In this document: piece after piece, positions 9,274 through 48,504 of the stretch | Layout: each line of letters opens with the position of its first letter | Numbering within the stretch: the first letter of the stretch is position 1 | NCBI GenBank assembly: GCA_947502635.1 | Contig: CANNAN010000003.1 | Coordinates: 310,001 to 374,000, forward strand | Direction of reading: 5' to 3' | Source of the DNA: an uncultured Flavobacteriaceae bacterium | GTDB taxonomy: Bacteria; Bacteroidota; Bacteroidia; Flavobacteriales; Flavobacteriaceae | DNA: 64,000 nt | Made by a program: the position numbers and the translations under genes | Notes under the pieces: generated by a model | Databases searched by the model: none | Told to the model about the DNA's origin: nothing | What the model saw: only the letters and a program-made list of their open reading frames with translations

Positions 9274-10284
9274 TTAATCCACTTTAACCCGTTCCTCTCT
9301 ATTAGCTAATTCCCAAGCTGTATGAAAAATGAGTCGTGCTCGTTTTTCTAATAAATCGTATTGAATTTTGTCTGGAGTATCCGAAGGTCTGTGATAATCG
9401 GCATGCGTACCATTAAAATAGAAGATAACAGGGATGTTGTTTTTAGCAAAATTGTAATGATCTGAACGGTAGTAAAAACGATTCGGATCATCATCATCAT
9501 TAAAAGTATAATCAAACTCCATATTAATATGTTTTTTGTTCACTGCTTCAGAAATATTGTGCAATTCCTTACTTAACTTATCCGATCCTATCAAGTATAC
9601 ATAATTTCTATTGTCCTTATGTTTTGCATCCACACGACCAATCATATCTATATTTAAGTTAGCGACTGTATTTTTTAAAGGAAAAACAGGATCTTCATCT
9701 GTGTAATATCGAGAACCAAATAGGCCAATTTCTTCACCCGTAACGTGTAAAAACAATATAGAACGTATTGGTCCATGCCCTTTATCTGAAGCTGCTTTAA
9801 AGGCTTCAGCAATTTCTAAAATAGCTACCGTACCAGATCCGTCATCGTCTGCACCGTTATTGATATCTCCATTTCCAGAAATACCAATATGATCTAAGTG
9901 AGCCGAAATTATGATGACTTCATCAGGTTTTTCAGAACCTTTTATATATGCTAAAACATTTTCAGAATCATTTATATCACCAGAAAAATATGAAGCAGGA
10001 ATTTCTTGAAAATAGTCCCCTTCTGAAATCGGGGATGGAATTCCTGAAGCTACATAATGTTTTTTAATAAACTCGACAGCCTTTTTTTGTCCTGGCTCTC
10101 CAGTCTTTCTACCTTCATATTCATCTGAAGCATAGGTGTAAAGCGCTTCTTTTAATTCGTCTGCAGTAATGGTTTTTGCATAGTCTATTGCAACACCATC
10201 ATTTTTTGATTTTTTTTTATTTTGAGAAGAACTGCACGAAACTACTAGTATGGTAGCACATAGAAGAATTACTGTTTTTTTCAT
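9274..10284 (-). CDS. M28-family zinc aminopeptidase-like lipoprotein (paralogue 1)
   Basis: A 336-residue exported peptidase. The N-terminus is a lipoprotein signal (hydrophobic core, then VVSC at about residue 16). The M28 domain (about 105-320) shows all expected zinc ligands: SAHLDHIG (His, Asp), GADDDGSG (bridging Asp), TGEEIGLFGS (catalytic Glu plus ligand Glu), NIDMIGR (Asp) and RSDHYNF (His). Such enzymes remove N-terminal amino acids from peptides at the cell surface or in the periplasm. It lies 62 bp downstream of a close paralogue on the same strand, evidently a tandem duplication; the two may be co-transcribed. Confidence 0.92.
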   Translation of the reverse strand: MKKTVILLCATILVVSCSSSQNKKKSKNDGVAIDYAKTITADELKEALYTYASDEYEGRKTGEPGQKKAVEFIKKHYVASGIPSPISEGDYFQEIPASYFSGDINDSENVLAYIKGSEKPDEVIIISAHLDHIGISGNGDINNGADDDGSGTVAILEIAEAFKAASDKGHGPIRSILFLHVTGEEIGLFGSRYYTDEDPVFPLKNTVANLNIDMIGRVDAKHKDNRNYVYLIGSDKLSKELHNISEAVNKKHINMEFDYTFNDDDDPNRFYYRSDHYNFAKNNIPVIFYFNGTHADYHRPSDTPDKIQYDLLEKRARLIFHTAWELANREERVKVD

Positions 10285-10346
10285 TTTGTAAAATATATTT
10301 TGTACGATATTACAAAAATGAATTAATAGAATAACAATTTTTCAAC

Positions 10347-11399
10347 CTAATTTAACAGTTCATTGAATTCGTCGATAACGATACGATGCTCTTGATTAGC
10401 AATTTGCCATGCCGTAGTAAATATAAGTTTAGTACGTCTTTGTAGTAGGTCGTAGTCTATTTTATCAGGCGTATCTGTAGGTTGGTGATAATCATTATGT
10501 TCTCCGTTAAAATAAAAAATAACAGGTACGCCTTTTATTGCAAAGTTATAGTGATCTGATCGTGAGTAATATTGATGGCCTTCACCTTCTACATTATATC
10601 TGTAATCAATATTTATATTGAAATAGGTATTGTTTACTTTTTCAGATAAATAATGAAGCTCTTTACTGTGTCTATCAGAGCCTATTAAATAGATATAATC
10701 TTTATTGTTTTGATGTATCTCGTCAACTCTACCTATCATATCAATATTTAGATTGGTAACTGTTTTTTCTAAAGGAAACACAGGATGTTGTGTATAGAAT
10801 TCTGAGCCTTGCTTTCCTATTTCTTCTGCAGTTAAATGCAAAAATAATATAGAACGTTTTGGACCATGTCCTTCTTTTTTAGCTAAGTTAAAAGCTTGCG
10901 CCATTTCCATGATAGCAACGGTTCCAGAGCCATCATCATCTGCACCATGATTTATTTCTCCATTATCTGTAATACCAAGATGATCCAAATGTGCAGAAAT
11001 AATAATAATTTCATCAGGTTTTTCACTGCCTTTTATATACGCTAAAACATTTTCAGAACTTTTAATTTCTTCAGAAAAGAAATCTTTGGGAATGGTTTGA
11101 TAATAATTACTGCCTCCAAAAGGAGATTTTATATTTTCATTTATGTAATATGATTTTAAAAACTCGGCAGCCAATTTTTGACCTTTTTCACCAACTTTTC
11201 TACCTTCAAATTCATCTGAAGAAAATTTATATAAATGTGTCTTTAATTCTTTAACAGTAATCGTATTAGCGTAATTAATAACATGAGTGCTATCTACTAG
11301 TTGAATACTATTTTTAAGGTTTTGGATTTTTGCAGTATACTTTGGCGTTGAACAGGTCCCCACAAGCACAAATGCAGCTAGTATAAAAAAGGTTTTCAT
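10347..11399 (-). CDS. M28-family zinc aminopeptidase-like lipoprotein (paralogue 2)
   Basis: A 350-residue homologue of the gene at 9274-10284, with the same order of motifs: SAHLDHLG, GADDDGSG, LTAEEIGKQGS, NIDMIGR and RSDHYNF, so all zinc ligands and the catalytic Glu are kept. The signal peptide ends in VGTC (about residue 16), again a lipobox. It differs mostly in the N-terminal 50 residues and in a longer C-terminal tail (EFNELLN). It is upstream of its sister and could drive both. Duplicated surface peptidases suit growth on protein, but substrates cannot be inferred. Confidence 0.92.
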   Translation of the reverse strand: MKTFFILAAFVLVGTCSTPKYTAKIQNLKNSIQLVDSTHVINYANTITVKELKTHLYKFSSDEFEGRKVGEKGQKLAAEFLKSYYINENIKSPFGGSNYYQTIPKDFFSEEIKSSENVLAYIKGSEKPDEIIIISAHLDHLGITDNGEINHGADDDGSGTVAIMEMAQAFNLAKKEGHGPKRSILFLHLTAEEIGKQGSEFYTQHPVFPLEKTVTNLNIDMIGRVDEIHQNNKDYIYLIGSDRHSKELHYLSEKVNNTYFNINIDYRYNVEGEGHQYYSRSDHYNFAIKGVPVIFYFNGEHNDYHQPTDTPDKIDYDLLQRRTKLIFTTAWQIANQEHRIVIDEFNELLN

Positions 11400-13779: not shown

Positions 13780-16700
13780 ATGAAATACAAGATTTGTATA
13801 TTGTTTTTAATGCATTTTTATTGCACAATTTCTTTTTGTCAAACAGCTAAATTAGATAGTTTAAAGCTTGAGCTTAAAAATGCTGTAACAGATTCTTCTA
13901 AAGCTCTAGTTTTAAAAAATATTTCGTGGGAATACTTAAATAATAGGTCTAATAATGCTATGGCAGAATTGTACATAGATAGCCTTTATAATTTGAGTGA
14001 AAAGGCTGGATTAAAAGGGCGGAAAATATTAGCTAAATATCAATATGGGGTCTTAGAACGTCAAAGAGGTAATTACGACAAAGCGCTTAGTTATTTTGAA
14101 GAATATATTAAATATTCAGAAGATAATAAAGAAAAAAAAGAAGTGGCAAATGGTTTGTATCAAAAAGCTTTAATCCTTGATGATAAAGGTTCATTTGAAG
14201 AGAGCCTTAAAATTTATTATGATATCCTAAAAATTTATGAAGAGATTAAAGATGTTTTTGGAGAAGCCACTACACTTAATGCTATTGGTGAAGTTTTAAA
14301 ACGATCAGAGAAAATAGATTTTGCGTTAGATCATTATAATAGGGCTTTATTGATTTTTGAGCGCTTAGAAGATAAAACAGAAATGGCTAATTGTAATTAT
14401 AATATTGGTGATTCTTACATGCTTCTTAAAAACTATGATAAAGCTTTAATTTATTTTAATAAGTCTCTAAAATTAGATACCGAGTTAAAAAGCAAGTGGG
14501 GCATGGCATATGATTATGAATCGCTTGGCAAAGTATCTGGCTTACAAGGAAATTATAGCCTAGCGTTAGGCTACCATCAAAAAGCACTTGCTTTGAGAGG
14601 TCAACTTAACCAAAAACGAGAGCTATCAATGAGTTATTTTGAAATAGCAAAAAATCATTTCAAACTTAAAGAATATAGCCTAGCAGAGCAATTTGCAATC
14701 AAATCGTTAAGCATTTCAGAAAAAATAGGAGATAAAGAAAAGTCGAAAGATAATTATATCATTCTTTCAGAATTATATAGTGCAAGAGGAGACTATAAAA
14801 AAGCGTTTGAATTTAATTCAAAATTAATAGTTGTAAAGGATAGTTTATATAATAAAAATAAGTCTCAACAGATAGAAGAACTTCAAGCTAAGTTTGATAC
14901 TGAAAAAAAGCAGAATGTCATTACTGCTTTAGAAAAAGATTCTGAGATAAAAGATTTAAAGCTAAAGCGGCAAGCAACGTTTAGAAATATAATTGTAGGT
15001 TTAATGGTGGGGCTCGTTTTAATGTCTTTTATCTTTTTTAAAAGATTTAAATATAAGCAACAACTAAAGCAAGAAGAATTAGAAAAAAAACAACTAATAG
15101 CAGAAGCAGAAGTTGAAAAAGAACGTGTTAAAGAGCTTCAGAAAATAGATGAACTTAAAGATGAGTTTTTGGCAAACACATCGCACGAATTGCGCACACC
15201 ACTTAATGGTATTATAGGTTTGTCCGAATCCCTTAAAGATGGAGCAGCAGGGGAACTATCGTCTAAAGCCATTGAAAATTTAGATATGATTGTCAATAGT
15301 GGTAAACGCTTATCTAATTTGGTTAATGATATTCTCGATTTTTCTAAATTAAAAAATAAAGATCTAGCACTTTCACTTCAGCCTATAGATTTGTATTCGG
15401 TAACAGATTTGGTTTTGAAAGTTTCAGAATTTTTGGCAACAGGCAAAGCATTACGTTTAATTAATTCGATACCCAAAGATATTTCTCTGGTTGAGGCAGA
15501 CGAAAACAGGTTAGAACAAATTTTGTATAATCTTATAGGAAATGCTATTAAATTTACTGAAACAGGTAAAGTTGAGGTAAATGCATTAGAAAGTGACGGG
15601 ATGTTATCAATTTCAATTACAGATACAGGTATTGGAATCCCTGAAGAAAAATTTGAGAGTATTTTTCAATCATTTGAACAAACTGATGGTTCTACAGTTA
15701 GAGAATATGGGGGAACGGGATTAGGGCTTTCTGTTACAAAACAATTGGTTGAATTGCATGGAGGTACAATTTTGGTGAATTCTGAAATTAATAAAGGCTC
15801 GACTTTTACATTCACATTACCAATAAGTAAAAAGAACAGAAAAGAGTTTGATGCAACTATAACAGGGAAATTATCACAAAGAGTTCAGAAAATTGATGAT
15901 TCTAATGAGCTTATTCAAGAAACGATATCAAAAGAAAACAATGTCAGTATTCGCATTCTTATTGTCGATGATATGGTGGTTAACAGGCGTGTTTTGGATA
16001 ACCATTTAACTTTGGCAGGATATGATATTGTTGAAGCTAGTAATGGTAAAGAAGCCTTAAAACTTATTGAAACAGAAAATTTTGATTTGGTTCTTTTAGA
16101 TATTATGATGCCAAATATGTCTGGTTATGAAGTTTGTGAAAAGATTAGGGAACAGTATTTAACAAGTGAATTACCTGTTGTTTTATTAACTGCTAAAAAT
16201 CGGGTAAACGATTTGGTTATGGGCTTTAATGTTGGTGCAAACGATTATTTAACGAAACCATTCTCAAAAAATGAATTGCTTAGTAGAATCAAAACACATT
16301 TAAATCTTAATGGCATTCATAAAGCAACGAGCCGATTTGTGCCATCCGAATTTTTGAAATCTGTAGGAAGAGATGCTATAACAGATGTGGTTTTAGGAGA
16401 CCATATTCAAAAAAAAGTGACTGTTTTGTTTACCGACATTAGAGATTATACAAGTTTATCTGAGTCTATGACACCAGAGCAAAATTTTAAGTTTGTAAAT
16501 GCCTATGTAGGGAGAATGGGTCCCTTAATTCAAAACAATCATGGATTTGTAAATCAATATCTGGGAGATGGTATTATGGCATTGTTTCCACAAGATGCAA
16601 GCGATGCATTAAAGGCTTCCATAGACATGCAGAAGACCATACAAGATTACAATGTTAAACGTATAGAAGAAGGCTATAAACCCATTCATGTAGGTATGGG

Positions 16701-17184
16701 GTTGCATACAGGTGATCTGGTCATGGGTATTATTGGAGATCTTTATAGAAATGATACGGCTATTATTGCAGATACTGTAAATACAGCCTCAAGAATGGAA
16801 GGTGTTACCAAATATTATGGAGCTAATATTATTGTAAGTGAAGCTAGTTTGAATACGATAGAAAACAAGCAGGACTATAATTTTAGATATTTAGGAAAAG
16901 TAAAAGTAAAAGGAAAAAATAATACGATAGCGATATACGAATGTTTTGATGGAGATACAACCGAAAGTGTTCGTCTGAAAACAAAAACATTAAAGCATTT
17001 CGAAAAAGGACTAAATCATTTTTATAATAAGGAGTTTCCTAAAGCTTCGGCGGCTTTTGATACGGTATTGACCAAAAATCCAGACGATCTTGTTGCTAAA
17101 TATTTTATAACAAAATCTGCTGAATATACCATTTCAGGGACCCCTGAGAATTGGAATATGGTGAATACGATGAAAGCGAAATAA
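13780..17184 (+). CDS. TPR hybrid histidine kinase with receiver and class III nucleotide cyclase domains
   Basis: A 1134-residue signalling protein. Order: signal peptide (1-20), TPR repeats (about 60-370, probably periplasmic), one membrane helix (about 403-421), coiled coil, HisKA with SHELRTPLNG (H469), HATPase with NAIKFTETG, DTGIGIPEE and GGTGLGLS (about 570-685), receiver with VDD and phosphoacceptor D774 in LLDIMMPNMSG (about 725-840), then a class III cyclase domain (about 875-1050) and a short TPR-like tail. In the cyclase, metal-binding D886 and D930 and transition-state N1001 and R1005 are present, so it may be active. The substrate-selecting positions are unusual: Q926 where adenylate cyclases have Lys, and Ala near 994 where Asp or Thr is normal. 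Product (cAMP, cGMP or none) is uncertain. Confidence 0.9.
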   Translation: MKYKICILFLMHFYCTISFCQTAKLDSLKLELKNAVTDSSKALVLKNISWEYLNNRSNNAMAELYIDSLYNLSEKAGLKGRKILAKYQYGVLERQRGNYDKALSYFEEYIKYSEDNKEKKEVANGLYQKALILDDKGSFEESLKIYYDILKIYEEIKDVFGEATTLNAIGEVLKRSEKIDFALDHYNRALLIFERLEDKTEMANCNYNIGDSYMLLKNYDKALIYFNKSLKLDTELKSKWGMAYDYESLGKVSGLQGNYSLALGYHQKALALRGQLNQKRELSMSYFEIAKNHFKLKEYSLAEQFAIKSLSISEKIGDKEKSKDNYIILSELYSARGDYKKAFEFNSKLIVVKDSLYNKNKSQQIEELQAKFDTEKKQNVITALEKDSEIKDLKLKRQATFRNIIVGLMVGLVLMSFIFFKRFKYKQQLKQEELEKKQLIAEAEVEKERVKELQKIDELKDEFLANTSHELRTPLNGIIGLSESLKDGAAGELSSKAIENLDMIVNSGKRLSNLVNDILDFSKLKNKDLALSLQPIDLYSVTDLVLKVSEFLATGKALRLINSIPKDISLVEADENRLEQILYNLIGNAIKFTETGKVEVNALESDGMLSISITDTGIGIPEEKFESIFQSFEQTDGSTVREYGGTGLGLSVTKQLVELHGGTILVNSEINKGSTFTFTLPISKKNRKEFDATITGKLSQRVQKIDDSNELIQETISKENNVSIRILIVDDMVVNRRVLDNHLTLAGYDIVEASNGKEALKLIETENFDLVLLDIMMPNMSGYEVCEKIREQYLTSELPVVLLTAKNRVNDLVMGFNVGANDYLTKPFSKNELLSRIKTHLNLNGIHKATSRFVPSEFLKSVGRDAITDVVLGDHIQKKVTVLFTDIRDYTSLSESMTPEQNFKFVNAYVGRMGPLIQNNHGFVNQYLGDGIMALFPQDASDALKASIDMQKTIQDYNVKRIEEGYKPIHVGMGLHTGDLVMGIIGDLYRNDTAIIADTVNTASRMEGVTKYYGANIIVSEASLNTIENKQDYNFRYLGKVKVKGKNNTIAIYECFDGDTTESVRLKTKTLKHFEKGLNHFYNKEFPKASAAFDTVLTKNPDDLVAKYFITKSAEYTISGTPENWNMVNTMKAK

Positions 17185-17223: not shown

Positions 17224-20200
17224 TCATCTTTTATAAGCTAACTGCTGTTTTATTTTATTGTTTTGTAACAATTTGGCTCTGTTAATACTATGAGCTGAAG
17301 ACATTGCTAAATACTTGTCAAATCTTTTATCCACACGTTTTTGTATGTCACGCATTAAGAGACTGTGTTGTTCTTTATTTCTTTTGAATAATTTTGAGAA
17401 CCGTGCTTCAAGTTTTAAATAGTCTTGAATGGGCAGAGATGGTATTTCAGAATCAAGTTGTAAGGTGTTCAGCTTCATTGCTTCGCGTCTTGAATCGTTT
17501 CTATATAATAACCATTGACCAGATTGCACAGCTGCTTGATGATATTTACTTGGATGTTTCATATCAATGCCATGCGAATCACTATGCGAGTAAGCAATAA
17601 TTATGGAAGGCCCATTAAAATTTTCTGCCTCATTAAAAGCTTTTAATGTTTGTGCTTGATTCGCTCCAATAGCTACCGATGCGACATAAACATGGTCATA
17701 ATTCATAGCTGTAAGACCCAAATCTTTTTTCTGTTTTTGCTTCCCATTAAAAGCGAATTTAGCTTCAGCTCCAAAAGGTGTTGCTTTTGATGCTTGTCCG
17801 CCAGTATTGTCATAAACCTCATTGTCTAGAACCAATATGTTTACATTTTTTCCAGAAGCCATTACATGATCTAATCCACCATAACCAATGTCGTATGCCC
17901 AACCATCGCCACCTACAATCCAAACACTTTTTTTAACTAAGCTATCTGCTATATTAAGCAGTTGTTTTGCTTCGGGTGATGCTATGGTTTTAAGTTGCTT
18001 TTTTAGAGTTTCAACTCTAAATTGTTGTTCATTAATTTCTTTTTCTGTTACTTGTTTAGCTTTAATAATATCATGAATCAGGCCTAGGTTTAGTGATGCT
18101 AGTTTAACAAGTAATGTTTTAGCTTGTTTTTCTTGCTGGTCTATTGATAAACGATATCCTAAACCAAATTCGGCATTATCTTCAAACAAAGAGTTGGACC
18201 AGGTAGGACCTTGACCTTTTTTGTTTTTACTCCAGGGCGTAGTTGGCAAAGCACCGCCAAAAATAGAACTAGCGCCAGTGGCATTTGCAACTAAAAGTCG
18301 ATCCCCAAACAATTGCGATATCAGTTTTAAATAAGGTGCTTCACCACAACCTTCAACACCAATTGAATATTTAAATAAAGGTTCTTGTAGTTGTTGTTGA
18401 CTTACTTTTGTGGTATCAATTTTTTCTCTATCAAATTCAGGAATACTTTCAAAATACTCCCAGTTTTGTTTTTCAGATTCGAAAACAGATGGTTTATTAA
18501 TCATTGTTAACGCTTTTACAGCGCATGCATCTACACAATTATTACACCCATTACATTGCTCTGGATTTATTTGAATGGTATAATTTAATAGATCAACTTT
18601 CCAATCGGTTTCAACAGATTTTACAGACTTAAAACCAGAAGGAGCGCTTTTTAAATAACTATCTTTATATGCCTTAATTCTAAGAGAGCCTTGCGGGCAA
18701 GCCATACTGCAAGCACCACATTGTGTGCATAAACCTTGATGCCATTCGGGTAAGAACTTATTTTGTTGAATAGGATTGAATGTTGCTGTATTAGTAGGAT
18801 ATGTGCCATCTACAGGAAGCATACTTACAGGGATGTTATCACCTTTATTAGCAAGTAATTTTCCTAAAAGGGAATTGTTAAAACAAGCATCAAAATCGGA
18901 AAAGGATGCTTCATTTTGAGATGTTTCAGACGTGTTAATCCTATATATAAAGTCATCTAAATCTGCTATGCTATCAGAATATACCAAATCTTTTTTCAAT
19001 GCTAGAAAACAAGCGTGTAAGTCAGATAGTGAAATGTTTTTTAATATATTTAATTGTAATAGTTCGTTGCTATCTACTATGAATAAATGAATATTTTTAT
19101 TAATTATTTGCTGTTGTACTTTAATCGATAGTGACTGCCAAAATGCTTTCGACTTTAGTGATGTATTAACCAAAAGGGTGCCTGCTGGTTTTAATTGCTG
19201 TATGATGTTGTCGTTTTGTGTGACGTTTACATGCTGACAGCCTATAAAATTGGCTTGTTCTATTAAATATGGTGCTTTTATAGGTGTTTTGTCTATACGT
19301 AAGTGTACAATGTTTTGTGCGTTAGATTTTTTATAGTCACATTGTGTATAGCCTTGGATATAATTGTTTTTTTTCTTTCCAATGATATCTAGAGTATTCG
19401 TAAAACTTTGAGTGTCTTTTTTACTTTTTCCTTGGTAAAAAATAGCTTCATAGGCTTTGTTTTCAATTTGAATAGTTTCCGAAAAATCTAAGCTCAAATT
19501 TTTCACATCGTCATTAATGCCTATTGTGAAATTGTTTTTTGGTCGTTCTTGTTTTAGGTTGTTTAAAATAGCTTGAACCATGGTTGGCGTAAATTCTTTT
19601 GAAGATAAACCATAGCGCCCTCCAACGATTTTAGGAAATGATGCTATTTTATTATTTTGAAATGCTTCTGAAATCGATTGTATAATGTCTAAATATAAAG
19701 GTTCGCCAGTTGAACCAGGTTCTTTGGTTTTATCTAAAACAGCAATTGATTTTGTTGATTTTGGTAAGGCACTAATTAAATGATTTGTGCTAAATGGTCT
19801 AAATAACCGTACTTTAATTAGTCCAAGTTTTTCGCCATTTTTATTTAAATGTTTTATGGTTTCTTCTATGGTTTCGGTTGAAGAAGCCATAGAAATAATA
19901 ATATGTTCTGCGTTTAAATCGCCAATATAATCAAACAATTTATAGTGTCTACCTGTTAGTAAAGCAAACGTATCCATGTGTTTTTGAACGATCTCTGGAC
20001 AAATATCATAGAAAGGGTTGATAGCTTCTCGACTTTGAAAAAAAATGTCCGCATTTTGTGCTGTCCCTCTAATAACAGGACTGTTTGGGGTTAAAGCACG
20101 ATTTCTGTGTTTTTCGATGTCTTTTAAATCCATCATGAATTGGATGGTTTCATCTTGAATAGTTTCTATTTTGTTTATTTCATGGGAGGTTCTAAATCCA

Positions 20201-20718
20201 TCAAAAAAATGAATAAAGGGAATACGGGATTCTAAAGTGGCAGCTTGTGCTATTAATGCAAAATCTTGAGCTTCTTGTACAGAGGCACTGCCTAGCATGG
20301 CATACCCAGATTGGCGTACTGCCATAATATCACTATGGTCCCCAAAAACAGATAGGGCATGTGTTGCAATACTTCTGGTAGCAACATGAATAACATTAGG
20401 GGTTAGTTCGCCTGCAATTTTATACATATTTGGTAGCATGAGAAGCAACCCTTGGGATGCTGTAAAAGTTGTTGATAAAGCGCCTGTTTGTAACGCGCCA
20501 TGCATAGTACCAGCAACACCAGCTTCGCTTTGCATTTGAAAGACAGATGGTATGTTACCAAAGCTATTTTGTTTTTTTTCTGAACACCATTGTTCTACCA
20601 ATTCACTCATTTCTGAGGAAGGCGTGATAGGATAAATAGGGAAGACCTCATTCGTTTTGTATGCTATACTTGCTACAGCCTGATTGGCATTTAATATGCG
20701 ATATGTTGAAGTTTTCAT
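17224..20718 (-). CDS. nifJ: pyruvate:ferredoxin (flavodoxin) oxidoreductase, single chain
   Basis: Oxidises pyruvate with CoA to acetyl-CoA and CO2, reducing ferredoxin or flavodoxin. The 1164-residue chain has all fused domains: an N-terminal pyrimidine-binding domain (NQAVASIAYKTNEVFPIYPI), transketolase-C-like and gamma domains in the middle, two 4Fe-4S motifs CTQCGACSMACP and CNGCNNCVDACA (about 680-745) and the C-terminal TPP site WIVGGDGWAYDIGYGGLDHV with DNEVYDNTGGQASK. The middle region (about 400-620) is more variable than in well-known NifJ proteins. It converges with the hybrid kinase gene and lies 79 bp downstream of osmC, a hairpin between them. An oxygen-sensitive enzyme suggests use when oxygen is low. 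Confidence 0.95.
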   Translation of the reverse strand: MKTSTYRILNANQAVASIAYKTNEVFPIYPITPSSEMSELVEQWCSEKKQNSFGNIPSVFQMQSEAGVAGTMHGALQTGALSTTFTASQGLLLMLPNMYKIAGELTPNVIHVATRSIATHALSVFGDHSDIMAVRQSGYAMLGSASVQEAQDFALIAQAATLESRIPFIHFFDGFRTSHEINKIETIQDETIQFMMDLKDIEKHRNRALTPNSPVIRGTAQNADIFFQSREAINPFYDICPEIVQKHMDTFALLTGRHYKLFDYIGDLNAEHIIISMASSTETIEETIKHLNKNGEKLGLIKVRLFRPFSTNHLISALPKSTKSIAVLDKTKEPGSTGEPLYLDIIQSISEAFQNNKIASFPKIVGGRYGLSSKEFTPTMVQAILNNLKQERPKNNFTIGINDDVKNLSLDFSETIQIENKAYEAIFYQGKSKKDTQSFTNTLDIIGKKKNNYIQGYTQCDYKKSNAQNIVHLRIDKTPIKAPYLIEQANFIGCQHVNVTQNDNIIQQLKPAGTLLVNTSLKSKAFWQSLSIKVQQQIINKNIHLFIVDSNELLQLNILKNISLSDLHACFLALKKDLVYSDSIADLDDFIYRINTSETSQNEASFSDFDACFNNSLLGKLLANKGDNIPVSMLPVDGTYPTNTATFNPIQQNKFLPEWHQGLCTQCGACSMACPQGSLRIKAYKDSYLKSAPSGFKSVKSVETDWKVDLLNYTIQINPEQCNGCNNCVDACAVKALTMINKPSVFESEKQNWEYFESIPEFDREKIDTTKVSQQQLQEPLFKYSIGVEGCGEAPYLKLISQLFGDRLLVANATGASSIFGGALPTTPWSKNKKGQGPTWSNSLFEDNAEFGLGYRLSIDQQEKQAKTLLVKLASLNLGLIHDIIKAKQVTEKEINEQQFRVETLKKQLKTIASPEAKQLLNIADSLVKKSVWIVGGDGWAYDIGYGGLDHVMASGKNVNILVLDNEVYDNTGGQASKATPFGAEAKFAFNGKQKQKKDLGLTAMNYDHVYVASVAIGANQAQTLKAFNEAENFNGPSIIIAYSHSDSHGIDMKHPSKYHQAAVQSGQWLLYRNDSRREAMKLNTLQLDSEIPSLPIQDYLKLEARFSKLFKRNKEQHSLLMRDIQKRVDKRFDKYLAMSSAHSINRAKLLQNNKIKQQLAYKR

Positions 20719-20797: not shown

Positions 20798-21349
20798 TTA
20801 CTTTACAATTTCGATTGAAACTGGAGTCGGGTTTGTGATCATATCGAACACAGGAGAGAATTTTGCTAAGTTTTCTAATTGTTCAACAGATGCATCAGAT
20901 TTTACTTTAAGTACAACTTTGATACCATCAAAACCTTTACGTATTTCAGGATTTAATCCTAAAAACCCGTGTAAATCAACACCACCAGCTAAAGTAGATT
21001 CTGCGCTTTCAATGTCAATGCCATTAGCAGCTGCATGATAAGTCATTGCTGCGGTTAAGCAAGACCCTAAAGCATGTAATACAACTTCTGGTGGGGTAGC
21101 TGCTTTGTCATTTCCTAATAATACGTTAGGATGGTCGCATTCCATTGTGAATGTTTCTTGACGCGATGTGTCTTCCGCACCAACACCATAAAAACTTTTG
21201 ATGTTTGTTACACAATGTCCGCCATCAATCCAGTCATTTTTAGATCTGAATTCGAATTTTGCTAATTCTGGGTTTTGTTGAACTGCTCCAATGGTTTCTA
21301 CTAATTGGTCTACGTTTACGCCGTTTTTTACATTTGCTGTTGTAATCAT
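20798..21349 (-). CDS. OsmC/Ohr-family protein
   Basis: A 183-residue member of the OsmC superfamily, whose best-known members reduce organic hydroperoxides through two cysteines. The expected elements are here: TMECDHPNVLLG with the first Cys (about residue 69) and VVLHALGSCLTAAMTYHAA with the second (about residue 93), both reactive positions filled. The longer N-terminus (VKNGVNVDQLVETIGAVQQNPEL) places it with OsmC-like proteins rather than short Ohr. It is preceded by an excellent sigma-54 promoter (21397-21412) and three palindromes, with a sigma-54 activator gene next upstream, so its expression is probably switched by that activator. Confidence 0.9.
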   Translation of the reverse strand: MITTANVKNGVNVDQLVETIGAVQQNPELAKFEFRSKNDWIDGGHCVTNIKSFYGVGAEDTSRQETFTMECDHPNVLLGNDKAATPPEVVLHALGSCLTAAMTYHAAANGIDIESAESTLAGGVDLHGFLGLNPEIRKGFDGIKVVLKVKSDASVEQLENLAKFSPVFDMITNPTPVSIEIVK

Positions 21350-21396: not shown

Positions 21397-21412
21397 TGCT
21401 AATGGCGTGCCA
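21397..21412 (-). promoter_or_regulatory. sigma-54 promoter of osmC
   Basis: Minus-strand TGGCACGCCATTAGCA (21412 to 21397) matches the sigma-54 -24/-12 consensus TGGCACG-N4-TTGCA with one mismatch (TAGC for TTGC). The invariant GG and GC dinucleotides have the required spacing. Predicted transcription starts near 21386, leaving a leader of about 37 nt before osmC. Confidence 0.82.
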
Positions 21413-21471: not shown

Positions 21472-21523
21472 ACGATAATTCGTTTATTTACGAAATGTCG
21501 TTATCTTATTTACGAGATTTCGT
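21472..21523 (-). promoter_or_regulatory. three ACGA-N4-TCGT palindromes, putative enhancer sites
   Basis: ACGATAATTCGT (21472-21483), ACGAAATGTCGT (21490-21501) and ACGAGATTTCGT (21512-21523) share the inverted repeat ACGA-N4-TCGT, spaced 18 and 22 bp apart. They lie about 60-110 bp upstream of the sigma-54 promoter, the usual place for binding of enhancer-binding activators, and right behind the stop codon of such an activator gene. Recognition by that protein is inferred. Confidence 0.72.
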
Positions 21524-21527
21524 GAAT

Positions 21528-23354
21528 TTATATGGGCCGTTCTATATCTAAGGCCTTAATCCTGGAAGTTAATGTGGTGGGAGGGACTTGTAATAAAGCG
21601 GCAGCACCGTTTATTCCAGATATTTTCCATTTGGTTTGTTTGAGGGCTTTTAAAATATTCTCTTTTTCTAAGGCAATAAGTTCCTGGGATGTTAAGATGT
21701 TTTCTTTAGCTGTTTCTTTCGGTAGGTTTTTCGAATTAGTATCACTTGGAATAATCGCTTGCCAATTTATAATTCCGTTTTGTGAAACGATGACAGCACG
21801 TTCAATTAAATTTTGTAGTTCCCGAACATTGCCTGGCCAGTTATATGAAGTCAGTAATGCTTTATCGTTTTCTGATAGTTCAACAATAGGCTTATTTAAT
21901 TTTTTAGAAAACAGAGTGATCATTTCGCTGGCAATCAAACAAATATCATTGCCTCTGTTTCTAAGTGCGGGAACTTCTATAGGGAAAACGTTTAGTCTAT
22001 AGTACAAGTCTTCTCTAAACTTACCTTCTTTAGAAAATTCAAAAAGGTTTCTATGTGTGGCTGCAATAATTCTAACATCCACTTTAATGGTTTTAGAACT
22101 TCCAACAGGATCAAATTCGCCTTCTTGAATAATGCGCAATAATTTAGGTTGTAATTCTAATGGCATTTCGCCTATTTCATCTAAAAAAATAGTCCCTTTA
22201 TCTGCTAGTAAAAAACGTCCTTTTCTACTAATGGTAGCCCCAGTAAAAGCCCCTTTTTCATGTCCGAATAATTCACTTTCTATAAGATTTACAGGTATGG
22301 CACCACAATTAATACGAATTAAAGGTTTGTCATTTCTATGACTTTCTTTGTGAATCGCTCTGGCGACTAGTTCTTTACCTGTTCCTGTTTCTCCATTTAT
22401 TAAAACAGTGGCATCTGTTTTTGCTACTTGATGAATGAGGTTAAGCGCAGCTTTCATACTTTTATCCTCAGCTATAATCCCATAGCTGCTGGTGAGCTCT
22501 TGAATTTCTTCGGCTAAATATTGGGTTTGTTTTGTAAGTAAATTTATTTTGTCTTCGGCTACCAAGCGTTCTTCAATATTTCTTAGAATAAGGGTATAGA
22601 AGGTTTTGGTACTGGTGCCATATTTGCTTATGGTGCCTTCATTTAAAGTTTCAGTATCGTTAGACCCTATGACTTTTACAATATTTGGAAGATAGTTGTT
22701 TATTGATTTTTTATCATCTTTAACTATCGATTCTATTAAGTTGGCACTGTCTTCATCAAAGAAGAATAAAACATTGCGTTGTAATGTGTCATTGTTCTCT
22801 AGTAATGTGTTTGCTGATGGATTTGTAAGTACAATTCTAAAGTCGTCGCTAAACATAATAATGGCGTCCATTGCACCATCAATAAGGCCGCTCATTTTGC
22901 TATTTGCTATTTCAATATCTTGTTTAGATGATGCTAACCGCTCTTGGATGGTATCTAATTCGCGATGACGCTTTATCATGACCGACAAGATACCTTGAGC
23001 AAAGCCGCTATCATTTTTAATCAAATTAAGAAAATGTTCCCGCTCAATTTTTAAAACCTTAGTGCTTTCTATGGCAGTTACAGAGGCAGAGCGTGTTTCA
23101 TTATCTATTAAAGCATATTCACCAAAGCAGTCTCCAATGCTTAGGGTATCATAAATATGGTTTTTGTCATGGATTTTTACCGCACCTTTTAAAACAGCAT
23201 ACATAGAATTTCCAATGGTGTCTTTTTCGAAAATGACTTCATTTTTTATATAAGTTTCTTCAGAAATATGGTCACACAGGTGTTGAAGCGATTCTAGAGA
23301 AACTTCAGAGAAAAAAGAAATTTCGGATAAAAAACTTATGAGGTTTTTGGCCAC
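21528..23354 (-). CDS. sigma-54-dependent activator with cNMP-binding and PAS-like domains
   Basis: A 608-residue enhancer-binding protein. Residues about 10-125 form a cyclic-nucleotide-binding domain ([20 protein letters not shown], close to the phosphate-binding cassette), 150-265 a PAS-like domain, then a sigma-54 AAA+ domain with Walker A GETGTGKE (321-328), GAFTGA (368-373) that contacts sigma-54, and Walker B GTIFLDE. The C-terminus (about 565-608) is a Fis-type helix-turn-helix. GAFTGA intact means it can activate. It probably drives osmC through the palindromes at 21472-21523. A nucleotide cyclase domain encoded at 13780-17184 could supply a ligand, but the phosphate-binding arginine and ligand are not proven. 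Confidence 0.92.
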
Positions 23355-24805: not shown

Positions 24806-25372
24806 TTATCTTTTAGCTCTAATTCTGCTTAATTGAGTTGGTGTAATACCTAAATATGAAGCAATATGGTATTGACTAATTTGGTTTTCTAAATTGGGAT
24901 ATTCTTTTTTGAAGATTTCATAACGTTCTTTTGCTTCTAGGGTTACGAGTTCAATTTCTCTTTTTTCTTTTATAGCGAACTTACGCTCTGCTAGTATTCT
25001 GGCAAGACTTTCAATTTTTGAATAATCTTTATAAAGCGAAGTGATTTTGTCAAAATCTGTAACTTGAAGCGTGCAATCTGTCAAGCATTGAATATTTATT
25101 AGATTTTTTTGTTTGGTTATTATAGAGGAATAGGCAGCAACAAAGTTTGAGGGTGTAAAAAAAGTCTTATTGTATTCATTTCCTGATTTGTTGCGAAAAA
25201 ATGCACGGATTACACCTGTATTCAAAAAGGCTAACTTATGTGAATATTCCCCTTCTTTAGCAAGGTAGTCCTTCTTTTTAAGTTTAATTTGTGAAAACAA
25301 AGAAGTGAAAATTGTCATCTCGTTTTCTGTAAAAGGGATTAGATTTTCTAAATATATTTTCAGTTCATTCAT
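24806..25372 (-). CDS. Crp/Fnr-family transcriptional regulator
   Basis: A 188-residue regulator with an N-terminal cNMP-binding-like barrel (about 10-120, YLAKEGEYSHKLAFLNTGVI) and a C-terminal winged helix (about 145-188). The recognition helix reads ITPTQLSRIRAKR, the form widespread in Bacteroidetes Crp-like proteins; it lacks the Glu of the ExxSR signature of E. coli Fnr. There are no clustered cysteines for an iron-sulfur centre, and the typical cAMP cassette (GExxxR) is not kept, so cAMP is unlikely to be the ligand. The SDR gene follows 65 bp downstream and is a likely target. Confidence 0.88.
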   Translation of the reverse strand: MNELKIYLENLIPFTENEMTIFTSLFSQIKLKKKDYLAKEGEYSHKLAFLNTGVIRAFFRNKSGNEYNKTFFTPSNFVAAYSSIITKQKNLINIQCLTDCTLQVTDFDKITSLYKDYSKIESLARILAERKFAIKEKREIELVTLEAKERYEIFKKEYPNLENQISQYHIASYLGITPTQLSRIRAKR

Positions 25373-44592: not shown

Positions 44593-45774
44593 ATGTTAAA
44601 AAAAACCTTTTCGATCAAGTTAATTATCCTTTCATTTATATCTATTAGTACATTCCTAATTAGTTGTAGTAATGATGGTGACAGTGTTGAAACAGAACGA
44701 TCTATAGACAATATAGATCCTACCATAGCATGTGTTTCAAATATTAATGAAACTGTAGATGCTTTATCAAATGGTAAAGAAATAACATATACAACTCCTG
44801 TTGGCTCAGATAACGTACCAGGAGCTATTACTTCGCAAACTGAAGGTTTAGCATCTGGAGAGATGTTCCCTGTTGGAACTACTACAAATACATTTCAAGT
44901 AAAAGACGTTGCTGGCAATATAGTGCTTTGTAGTTTTGATGTTATTATTACAAGAAACGAACCTTCGTCAAATTTGCCTTATTTTATTGAAGTTGATCCT
45001 ACACCTTCAGGTAAAACATGGAGTAAAATTGAAAACTTATCAGATGAGTTTAATGATGGTAGTCTTGATGAGAGTAAATGGTTAAATACAGATCCAAATA
45101 GATGGATTGGAAGAGCACCAGGAATTTTTAAGAAAAATACTGTAATTGAGGCTGAAAATAATCTTATGCTTACAGCTTATCAGTTAGATACTCCAGAAGT
45201 AGTAAATGGTAATACATTTACACATGCAGGATCTAATATTTACTCTAAAGAAGCCGCTCAAGTTGGGTATTATTTTGAATGTAAAATGAAGGCTAATAAA
45301 ACGTTTATGTCTTCTACATTTTGGTTAATTAATAATAGGAATGATGGAACTGGTTGTGATAAAAGAGTTACTGAATTGGATATTCAAGAGTGTGTAGGAC
45401 AAATTACTGGGACTGCAAATTTTGCTCAAAAATTTGATGAAACAATTCATTCTAACACCCACAGTAGACAAACAGATTGTACCGCTACACCAACAGGGTC
45501 TGCAGGAGATGATAGTGAAGTAGGGGCAAAAGTTTGGGAAGATTATCATGTTTATGGTGCATGGTGGAAAAGTGCTACCGAAATTGAATTTTACTTAGAT
45601 GGTAAAAAAGTGTATACTATTACTCCTAAGGCTAATTTTGATTTACCATTGTATTTAAGAATGGTTGTTGAAACCTATGATTGGAACCCTGTTCCTTCTG
45701 ATGGGGGTATGACAGGAAATGAAGAAGAGCGTACTACTTATTATGACTGGATAAGGACATGGGAATTAAAATAA
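44593..45774 (+). CDS. GH16 family glycoside hydrolase with HYR domain
   Basis: A 393-residue exported enzyme. A lipoprotein-like signal (FLISCSND, Cys about 25) is followed by an HYR-type immunoglobulin-like domain (about 40-120, EMFPVGTTTNTFQVKDVAGN) and a GH16 catalytic domain (about 140-393). The catalytic motif ExDxxE is at 261-266 (ELDIQE), and FKKNTVIEAENNLMLTAYQL and YDWNPVPSDGG are typical of the agarase/porphyranase/laminarinase clan. The 3' sequence is followed by a strong terminator. It is likely to cut a marine galactan or beta-glucan at the cell surface; sequence alone does not tell which. It is not part of the alginate locus by position. Confidence 0.88.
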   Translation: MLKKTFSIKLIILSFISISTFLISCSNDGDSVETERSIDNIDPTIACVSNINETVDALSNGKEITYTTPVGSDNVPGAITSQTEGLASGEMFPVGTTTNTFQVKDVAGNIVLCSFDVIITRNEPSSNLPYFIEVDPTPSGKTWSKIENLSDEFNDGSLDESKWLNTDPNRWIGRAPGIFKKNTVIEAENNLMLTAYQLDTPEVVNGNTFTHAGSNIYSKEAAQVGYYFECKMKANKTFMSSTFWLINNRNDGTGCDKRVTELDIQECVGQITGTANFAQKFDETIHSNTHSRQTDCTATPTGSAGDDSEVGAKVWEDYHVYGAWWKSATEIEFYLDGKKVYTITPKANFDLPLYLRMVVETYDWNPVPSDGGMTGNEEERTTYYDWIRTWELK

Positions 45775-46587: not shown

Positions 46588-48504
46588 TTATATAAAGTTT
46601 TTTAAGTCAAATCTGATTTTTAAAATTTCTTGAATTTTTTGAATAGGCTTAAAGCAACGTCTTAGTTTTAGCTTTTCTTCCTTTGTTAAGGTTTCTAAAT
46701 CAATAAACTTACCAGAATTATCGCGTAATAAACCCTGTTTGGTTTTAAATTTAGACAAGGCTTTAAAGGCATAGGAACAGGATTCGTATAATTCCTTGTT
46801 ATTAGGTTCTAGTTCTGCTAATTTTTCGAAACGTTCGTAAGTATTATTAACCCCTTTTATTTGTTTGCTCAATATGAGTAATCTAGCAGCATCAATAAGT
46901 GGCATTAAAGCTCTGTGTTTAATATTGAAAAGCTCCTTTTGATCACCATTTTGTTCCACTAAAAACTGTTTGAAAAAACCAAGAGGAGAAGGGCTTTTAA
47001 CAGCATCTCGTCCTAAGAATTTATAAAATAAATCCGTTTGTCCCAGAGTTGAATAAATAGTGTCGGTAAGGTCATCAACTAATTCTTTATTTCCAAAAGC
47101 ACGATTATAATCAAAAAATATGGAAGACAATAAAATAGCCTTTTCATCTGGTTTTAAAATCCAATCTTTAAATTGAGTTTTCCACTCTGTTAAAGATTTA
47201 CACCATTCAGGATTGCTCGCCATCATATCGGCTTCACAATATTCGAATCCAATTTTATTTAAAGATTTGGTAATCAGTTTAGAGAGTTCTAAAAAATAAG
47301 CTTGTGTTTCTTCATAGTGTTCTTTAGGGACATCTTCAAATACCAAAGCATTATCCTGATCGGTGAAAAGTAATTGTTCACTACGTCCTTGACTGCCTAA
47401 AGCCAACCAAGAAAAAGCCACAGGAGGTGTTGTGGGCATTTTTTTTAAAGCCAATTCTACAGTACGAATTGTAACGGCATCATTAATTTGAGAAATGACG
47501 TTTATAATGTGTGATAAAGGGATGTTTTGCTCAATATAATTTTTTAATAAAGCATGCCCCTTAAGTCTTGCTGCACGTAACTTTTTAGTTCGTTTGGCAC
47601 GTTTTATCTCTTTAAGAATAACGGTTGGATTATTACCCAAAGTCACTAAAACATCGTGGTGGGTTAAAACCCCAATAAGCTTAGAATTAATGGTACCATC
47701 TTTAGTAATACACAAATGCCCAATACTATTCTTAATCATTTGTAATTGCCCATCTGCTATCGTTAAATTTTTCTTACCTGTCATTACAGGCGAACTCATA
47801 ATATTGGTTACTGGAGTTTCAATAGGGAATAGGCCTGTTGCTATTTTATTCTTAATATCACTATTAGTAATAATACCCACTGGTTTTTTTTCGGTATCTA
47901 TAACTATAATACAACCAATTTTATGAGCACTCATTTTTTTTGCAGCTTCTTTTAAAGAGGTTTGCATGGAACAAGTAATTGGTGATTTTGTGTAATTAGC
48001 TGTTTGAAAATTTACCATGTCTTGAGACTTGTTAGGTAAATAATCAACAAAAATTTCATCAGCTACTTCTGTTGAATAAGGATCGTAAGCATTGGATGCG
48101 AACGCGGTAATTAAATATTTATGAACTTGAGTATTATAATCTGTTACCGATTGAAAAATGGCAATAGGGATGGCATAAACTATAGATTCTTCGTTAGCAG
48201 CAGCGGTTAGCTTATAAGGTTCTTTAATTATAAGTGGGCGTAATCCAAAAACATCACCAGTATCATGAATATTCATAATATCTTTAACATCGCCGTTACT
48301 GTAATAGAGATTTATAGCACCATTTCTTACGATATAAAAACTGTCATGACAGACATCATCCTTTTTAAATATAGTATCTCCTTTTTCTAAATAAGTTATA
48401 GTAACCTCTGTAGCAATTTGTAACAAGGTTTTATTAGAAAGCATATTAAAAGGCGGATAGCCATTTAAAAAATCTGCAACGCGTTCAGCTATAGAATTCT
48501 TCAT
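46588..48504 (-). CDS. cNMP-binding, CBS and DUF294 nucleotidyltransferase-like protein
   Basis: A 638-residue cytoplasmic protein: cNMP-binding-like domain (about 10-125, VCHDSFYIVRNGAINLYYSN), a CBS pair (about 165-285, IGCIIVIDTEKKPVGIITNSD), then DUF294 with the nucleotidyltransferase-like core SWLALGSQGRSEQLLFTDQDNAL (about 366-388; GSxGRxE and DQD), and DUF294_C. The form is like GlnD-type regulatory nucleotidyltransferases; it is thought to adjust a partner in response to bound nucleotides. It lies 34 bp behind the FAH gene and directly before the exonuclease gene; the DUF4212, ActP-like and acs partners of this module are in the opposite strand at 40.5-44.5 kb. Confidence 0.9.
   Translation of the reverse strand: MKNSIAERVADFLNGYPPFNMLSNKTLLQIATEVTITYLEKGDTIFKKDDVCHDSFYIVRNGAINLYYSNGDVKDIMNIHDTGDVFGLRPLIIKEPYKLTAAANEESIVYAIPIAIFQSVTDYNTQVHKYLITAFASNAYDPYSTEVADEIFVDYLPNKSQDMVNFQTANYTKSPITCSMQTSLKEAAKKMSAHKIGCIIVIDTEKKPVGIITNSDIKNKIATGLFPIETPVTNIMSSPVMTGKKNLTIADGQLQMIKNSIGHLCITKDGTINSKLIGVLTHHDVLVTLGNNPTVILKEIKRAKRTKKLRAARLKGHALLKNYIEQNIPLSHIINVISQINDAVTIRTVELALKKMPTTPPVAFSWLALGSQGRSEQLLFTDQDNALVFEDVPKEHYEETQAYFLELSKLITKSLNKIGFEYCEADMMASNPEWCKSLTEWKTQFKDWILKPDEKAILLSSIFFDYNRAFGNKELVDDLTDTIYSTLGQTDLFYKFLGRDAVKSPSPLGFFKQFLVEQNGDQKELFNIKHRALMPLIDAARLLILSKQIKGVNNTYERFEKLAELEPNNKELYESCSYAFKALSKFKTKQGLLRDNSGKFIDLETLTKEEKLKLRRCFKPIQKIQEILKIRFDLKNFI

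Follow-up and report, generated by a model that had tools for sequence, protein, structure and literature searches.

The window—64,000 nucleotides (nt) covering positions 310001–374000 of contig C3 in the 5.44-Mb assembly of a marine bacterium (genome label G000)—encodes a sensor kinase fused to a class III nucleotide cyclase (the kinase–cyclase; window positions 13780–17184, + strand, 1134 amino acids, ATG start). Next to it lie genes for a NifJ-like pyruvate:ferredoxin/flavodoxin oxidoreductase (17224–20718, −; Pfam POR_N, PFOR_II, TPP_enzyme_C, and Fer4), an OsmC-like protein (20798–21349, −; Pfam OsmC), and a sigma-54 activator (21528–23354, −). The activator joins a cyclic nucleoside monophosphate (cNMP)-binding domain, a weak PAS domain, an AAA+ module bearing GAFTGA, and a Fis-type helix–turn–helix (HTH). 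The osmC gene would be the first gene of a predicted target operon that also holds nifJ. Together, these elements outline a candidate circuit from sensor to cyclic nucleotide to sigma-54 transcription.

Pfam assigns the kinase–cyclase the fused order that an earlier note had read from the sequence, all within one open reading frame. TPRs at residues ~80–345 precede HisKA (residues 460–526; 15157–15357, +), HATPase_c (residues 574–682; 15499–15825, +), a Response_reg receiver (residues 726–838; 15955–16293, +), and the cyclase homology domain (16411–16926, +). The N terminus is hydrophobic and a single strong hydrophobic stretch, the predicted transmembrane segment, lies at residues ~402–421 (14983–15042, +; hydropathy only), which suggests that the TPRs are periplasmic. 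The phosphotransfer residues are H469 (15184–15186) and D774 (16099–16101), so that, as in CyaC-like proteins, a kinase His and a receiver Asp share one chain with the cyclase. The cyclase residues are D886, Q926 (16555–16557), D930, A994 (16759–16761), N1001, and R1005; the numbering of all eight positions was checked by script. Guanylate_cyc (PF00211) matches residues 878–1049 with 77.1 bits, well over its cut-off of 21.9. A structure prediction proposed in the earlier note was run on residues 851–1134: the AlphaFold2 monomer model has a mean predicted local distance difference test (pLDDT) score of 88.5 and a predicted template modeling (pTM) score of 0.86. Its best Foldseek matches are class III cyclases—the guanylyl cyclase Cya2 (2w01, E 1.1e-15), OaPAC, CyaB, and Spirulina CyaC (1wc1). 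Fold, PF00211 match, two metal Asp residues, and the Asn–Arg pair are thus all those of a class III cyclase.

These residues are strongly conserved among relatives, the named ones being mostly Flavobacteriaceae. Across 46 full-length rows (45 orthologues plus the window protein), H469, D774, D886, Q926, D930, A994, N1001, and R1005 are identical without exception, although majority identity averages 53% in the TPR region against 81–90% in HisKA, receiver, and cyclase. The four catalytic residues that the note had listed are therefore kept, and direct phosphotransfer control of the fused cyclase, as it had supposed, seems the natural reading of the invariant H469 and D774. We also compared a clade of 88 among 122 aligned rows, leaving out two window copies and 32 rows below 200 bits (other families and fragments); some of the 88 represent one gene reached through two collections. 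At the Lys position, whose conservation the note had wished to see checked, Gln occupies 86/88 rows and two are masked. The second base-choosing position is Ala in 82, Thr in five, and Gly in one. All four catalytic residues are complete in 86/88, and masking or truncation accounts for the remaining two. The unusual pair Gln926/Ala994 is thus real and conserved: the kinase–cyclase lacks both the canonical adenylate cyclase pair (Lys with Asp or Thr) and the Glu that canonical guanylate cyclases have in place of Lys. Fixed catalytic residues beside a fixed, odd base pair argue for an active cyclase; the kinase–cyclase appears to be a catalytically competent enzyme, and its cyclase domain is unlikely to act purely as a sensor.

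Two other class III cyclases were found in the genome, in open frames of 370 and 358 amino acids (L002, G000:C6:68389–68904; L003, C3:537306–537848). Gln stands at the Lys position of both, which leaves the genome without a canonical Lys in any of its three identified class III cyclases.

We placed the Gln substitution on a cyclase-domain tree of 107 rows, built by a quick method after the two trait columns had been removed. Gln/Ala rows form a single clade (Shimodaira–Hasegawa-like approximate likelihood ratio test, 95) with one His/Asn row nested inside. The closest outgroups are mostly Lys/Thr, and the 12 "sister" rows have Lys in nine, Ser in two, and His in one. The whole tree needs at least four Lys/Gln changes, and Gln at this position recurs across several bacterial cyclase families; because several long branches meet, only the nearest relations are trustworthy. 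Given the predominance of Lys/Thr among the closest outside cyclases, a single loss of Lys in the lineage of the kinase–cyclase is probable. In six of eight distant clade proteins scanned, a receiver and a kinase ATPase precede the cyclase, with sensors that are 7TMR-DISM, propeller/Y_Y_Y, TPR, or none found; the remaining two are a GAF–cyclase and a propeller–cyclase. The kinase–receiver–cyclase unit is thus wider than the kinase–cyclase family, and its sensors differ. Chains of this kind within the same Gln clade, with 7TMR-DISM, propeller/Y_Y_Y, or TPR sensors, were seen in Saprospiraceae and other Bacteroidota (L081, L085, L090, L091, and L102).

The downstream neighbors are conserved in Flavobacteriaceae and recur with the kinase–cyclase. 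We compared 46 kinase–cyclase loci (identity at least 61%), none longer than ~13 kb and many ending within the activator or short of it. Of these, 36 encode nifJ, 34 osmC, and 27 the activator, every time on the strand opposite the kinase–cyclase. All three occur together in 26/46 loci and none of the three in 9/46. Two tandem M28 peptidases (9274–11399) lie upstream of the cyclase and are partly conserved there. Three related loci hold a ferredoxin–cyclase–globin gene with Gln–Ala beside nifJ: in L163 (2202–3557, −; Pfam Fer2, Guanylate_cyc, and Globin) it sits between usp and nifJ, and in L045 and L052 between the kinase–cyclase and nifJ.

The activator has the features expected of a cyclic-nucleotide receptor with sigma-54 output. 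Its cNMP_binding domain scores 70.1 bits, with a phosphate-binding cassette at ~23082–23126; PAS_9 (21.0 bits, cut-off 27) and HTH_8 (20.0 bits, cut-off 22) fall below their cut-offs. An AAA+ module with GAFTGA, a Fis-type HTH just under threshold, and an RpoN encoded in the genome are those of a sigma-54 activator. In a sample of 149 family genomes, 15 encode the activator at E < 1e-200 (a match in G083, 5e-105 and confined to residues 195–607, was excluded). F77 G78 E79 Y80 A81, R88 S89 A90 S91, and, in the next helix, K128, R129, H130, R131, and D134 are invariant in 15/15 activator orthologues, which thus all retain the cassette Glu and Arg of cNMP receptors. Profile alignment equates R129 with CRP R123 (CRP numbered without Met). 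An ungapped extension beyond the aligned block equates D134 with CRP Ser128, an adenine contact; in that register the CRP contacts Thr127/Ser128 are not matched, the activators having Leu or Val and Asp. BLASTP of the activator against CRP was uninformative. An AlphaFold2 model of residues 1–275 has a mean pLDDT of 61.6, good in the cNMP domain and poor in the PAS part, and the cNMP-domain fold resembles cAMP and cGMP (cyclic adenosine and guanosine monophosphate) receptors alike.

A survey of cNMP-binding proteins in the genome returned 32 matches, of which 30 were examined, about half of them not alignable at the cassette and covered by a motif scan alone. The full cassette was found in the activator only (1/30), which makes it the genome's best candidate reader of the messenger as judged from sequence; one other protein (L272) keeps Glu and Arg and has lost the small residue that follows. 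The earlier note had pointed to three nearby cNMP-binding proteins, at 21528, 46588, and 24806. Their Pfam domains stand, and the phosphate-binding Glu and Arg are kept only in the protein at 21528–23354. The DUF294/CBS protein at 46588 has neither residue in sequence and alignment, and the Crp-like protein at 24806 shows no cassette motif in its sequence and is not alignable at that region; both were rejected as receptors. What the note missed is that, of the three, the sigma-54 activator alone seems equipped to bind cyclic nucleotide, and that it is the conserved neighbor.

Between activator and osmC lie the two elements expected of an enhancer-binding protein and its target, both as predicted sites. 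A putative enhancer (21472–21523, −) consists of three ACGA-N4-TCGT palindromes at 21472–21483, 21490–21501, and 21512–21523, and a putative sigma-54 −24/−12 promoter, TGGCACGCCATTAGCA (21397–21412, −; by consensus and conservation), stands 47 nt before the osmC start. The exact palindrome occurs four times in the window against 0.13 expected: three upstream of osmC and a fourth inside another open reading frame at 44957. Matches to the sigma-54 consensus with two mismatches across the whole window are at chance level (23 vs. 23.5 expected), so only conservation upstream of osmC counts. In 34 osmC upstream regions, window included, a sigma-54 site scoring at least 9/11 lies at 43–58 nt in 30; the regions without one are L044, L045, L050, and L058, and L045 shows a variant under a looser pattern. 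The exact palindrome is present in 32/34 and CGA-N4-TCG in 34/34, multiple palindromes being spaced at steps of 22, 18, or 40.

The region before osmC is the only place in G000 with an exact pair of palindromes at one or the other spacing. Relaxed pairs with three mismatches are rarer than in the reversed control (8 vs. 15 and 3 vs. 15), so we claim no further targets in this genome. Across the 149 genomes the exact double palindrome appears in 10, all among the 15 that bear the activator, and its reversed control in none; the double palindrome precedes osmC in 9/10, the exception being G148. In that genome a palindrome pair with a sigma-54-like site (L260:6311–6344) precedes an operon that starts with a 261-amino-acid protein, methyltransferase-like by appearance. 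The enhancer was alike in 13 loci checked regardless of cyclase type, with at least one exact palindrome in 13/13; 9/13 had a sigma-54 site between −61 and −74.

Cyclase and activator co-occur, and the cyclase type is exchanged. A close kinase–cyclase orthologue (identity at least 69%) is encoded in 8/149 genomes, each of which has the activator. Other activator genomes carry an alternative cyclase of ~680 amino acids with the order cyclase–FlgO–TPR and base residues Gln–Asp, one copy lying at L163:12480–14525; counted at E < 1e-140, it occurs in 10 genomes (a Lys–Asp relative in G037, 8e-82, was excluded). It is a divergent neighbor of the activator in six genomes (G006, G034, G044, G059, G077, and G115) and shares its contig in G102. 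Each of the 15 activator genomes has either a close kinase–cyclase orthologue or a cyclase from a different family that also bears Gln, in many cases adjoining the activator. One or the other type occurs in 17/149 genomes, and the activator in 15 of these (Fisher P 9e-19, thresholds being post hoc and kinship uncorrected). On the best activator tree the cyclase type changes three times, and the starred (firmest) branches alone force one change. Among 27 genomes reached through kinase–cyclase loci, 25 have the activator; at least five of the 27 are also in the sample of 149, so the two sets overlap.

We lean toward one circuit as the account of these observations, running from signal through phosphotransfer and cyclic nucleotide to the sigma-54 activator and osmC–nifJ. 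The membrane sensor kinase would change its phosphorylation state, and the fused class III cyclase would then make a cyclic nucleotide. The neighboring activator would read this messenger, bind the three palindromes, and fire the sigma-54 promoter of the osmC–nifJ operon. Oxygen or redox state may be the input, a guess prompted by nifJ itself and by the ferredoxin–cyclase–globin genes beside nifJ in three related loci.

Several observations weigh against this circuit or its reach. Two of the 27 genomes have a kinase–cyclase with no activator (G550, locus L049; G552, locus L051), and the 680-amino-acid Gln cyclase occurs without it in G005 and G024. A search of 22 genomes that encode more distant clade members gave no clear activator orthologue, the sole weak match being at E 5e-23, and five family genomes whose distant members are 43–55% identical lack it (G024, G025, G037, G079, and G104). 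Gln/Ala therefore looks older than the partnership with the activator and is not tied to it. G148 has its activator and 680-amino-acid cyclases on different contigs; its double palindrome precedes a different operon, and its osmC carries a single exact copy. Some relatives encode, near the kinase–cyclase cluster, a cyclase of 505–513 amino acids with Lys and Arg at the base positions (L171:12390–13928, L057, and L075), and the two other Gln cyclases of the genome could feed the same receptor. Kinship and thresholds chosen afterward inflate the association tests, as relatives are not independent. A link by which Gln at the Lys position would signify this receptor was considered and ruled out: Gln cyclases occur without the activator.

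The identity of the messenger divides the candidate readings. A plain adenylate cyclase, in which Gln926 takes over the function of Lys and the product is cAMP, is a serious contender that we place somewhat short of even. In its favor, Lys/Thr prevails among the closest outside cyclases, Gln turns up in several cyclase families of bacteria, and mycobacterial Rv0386 is reportedly an adenylyl cyclase with Gln–Asn; the available portions of PMC6027212 and PMC10745434 contain no statement on its base residues. Against cAMP, Ala994 cannot serve as an acceptor for adenine N6, an invariant Asp of the receptor falls on CRP Ser128, and each of the three class III cyclases identified in the genome lacks Lys. 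A guanylate or mixed purine cyclase, with Gln926 as a Glu isostere and Asp134 of the receptor reading guanine, is a reading we hold tentatively, as one possibility in the minority. The earlier note held that guanylate cyclases need Glu and Cys; the accessible part of PMC4215837 bears out the Glu and not the Cys, describing a variable second residue for which Ala is allowed, and A994 is thus compatible with GTP. The Glu–N1/N2 contact is held to be dominant (PMC4215837 and PMC7384201, in part), and in RhGC only the Glu contact was seen (PMC7384201, in part). At the CRP Ser128 position, the available part of PMC11224242 gives Asn for cyclic uridine monophosphate and Glu in the cGMP-specific XC_0249, and the activator has Asp there in 15/15. 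Cya2, a guanylyl cyclase, is the closest solved structure in both sequence and fold. However, Gln differs from Glu, Ser1004 replaces the Tyr that raises guanylyl cyclase activity in Cya2, the register of Asp134 comes from ungapped extension past the aligned block, the receptor fold does not separate cAMP from cGMP, and the 680-amino-acid cyclase beside the same receptor type has Asp at the second site. Because Gln fits neither Lys (ATP) nor Glu (GTP), guanylate cyclases tolerate Ala, and Rv0386 is reportedly an adenylyl cyclase with Gln, and because the receptor Asp stands where CRP contacts adenine, we take cAMP and cGMP to be about equally likely products, and a pyrimidine less so.

A Pycsar-type pyrimidine cyclase with a defense effector is very unlikely. 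In a PADLOC scan that covered only the cyclase and the activator, PycC models match the cyclase domain (best 59.4 bits) and PycTIR models the receptor's domain, and EaPycC uses a Gln two residues off the Q926 site (PMC11224242, in part). However, residues at the Lys position of the characterized PycCs in that part of the source are Asp, Arg, or Lys and never Gln (positions counted by hand), the partner here is a transcription activator—a sigma-54 protein—rather than a TIR or membrane effector, and the cyclase is a multidomain kinase sensor. Least credible of all is the note's option of a degenerate cyclase serving only as a nucleotide sensor: both base-choosing residues are altered, as it would expect, but the metal Asp residues, the Asn, and the Arg are fixed in every readable clade row. 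It is also unlikely, though a less distant prospect, that the cyclase only happens to lie with the sigma-54 operon in one redox island, the two having no functional link. The wider neighborhood is partly conserved too (Usp and M28 peptidase in 13/46 loci each), and clade members elsewhere manage without the activator; set against this are the co-occurrence with exchange of cyclase type, an enhancer confined in its own genome to this site, and a single receptor with the full cassette.

Beyond the linked circuit itself, we entertain, with less than even confidence, a Bacteroidota pathway that does not use cAMP. Gln cyclases of several families would make cGMP, mixed, or pyrimidine cNMPs, and an Asp-bearing sigma-54 receptor would switch one redox operon through a triple palindrome. 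Cyclic mononucleotide signaling in Bacteroidota seems little charted, with few papers found, and among the papers listed no title or abstract opening concerned control of a sigma-54 activator by a cyclic mononucleotide. It is seldom possible to match a cyclase to its receptor and target by sequence; in this case every element, from sensor and cyclase through receptor, enhancer, and promoter to operon, can be named. The substrate choice of Gln cyclases and cyclic-nucleotide control of sigma-54 transcription thereby become directly testable, and cyclases of different families exchanged beside one receptor offer a natural experiment on messenger identity.

Among known systems, CyaC of Spirulina and Anabaena is similar in coupling kinase–receiver phosphotransfer to a class III cyclase in one chain, and is reportedly an adenylate cyclase with kinase and receiver domains. 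Phosphorylation of CyaC by AphC has been proposed (PMC4284465, in part). The kinase–cyclase differs from CyaC in its TPR sensor, single receiver, Gln/Ala in place of the adenine pair, Bacteroidota host, and linked sigma-54 receptor. Mycobacterium tuberculosis Rv0386 is reportedly an active class III cyclase that also has Gln in place of Lys; it differs in its Asn second residue, its other domains, and its family. Cya2 of Synechocystis (2w01), the nearest solved relative, shares a small second residue, whereas it has Glu at the Lys position and only ~28% identity. RtcR-type sigma-54 activators likewise place an AAA+ and HTH module under a nucleotide-responsive domain, and RtcR-type CARF_AAA_HTH models match activator residues 273–605 (PADLOC); the N terminus of RtcR is a CARF domain, whereas that of the activator is a cNMP-binding domain. 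With CRP and other cNMP-binding receptors the activator shares an intact phosphate-binding cassette; unlike CRP, it has Asp134 at the Ser128 position, and its output would run through sigma-54 rather than the CRP winged helix.

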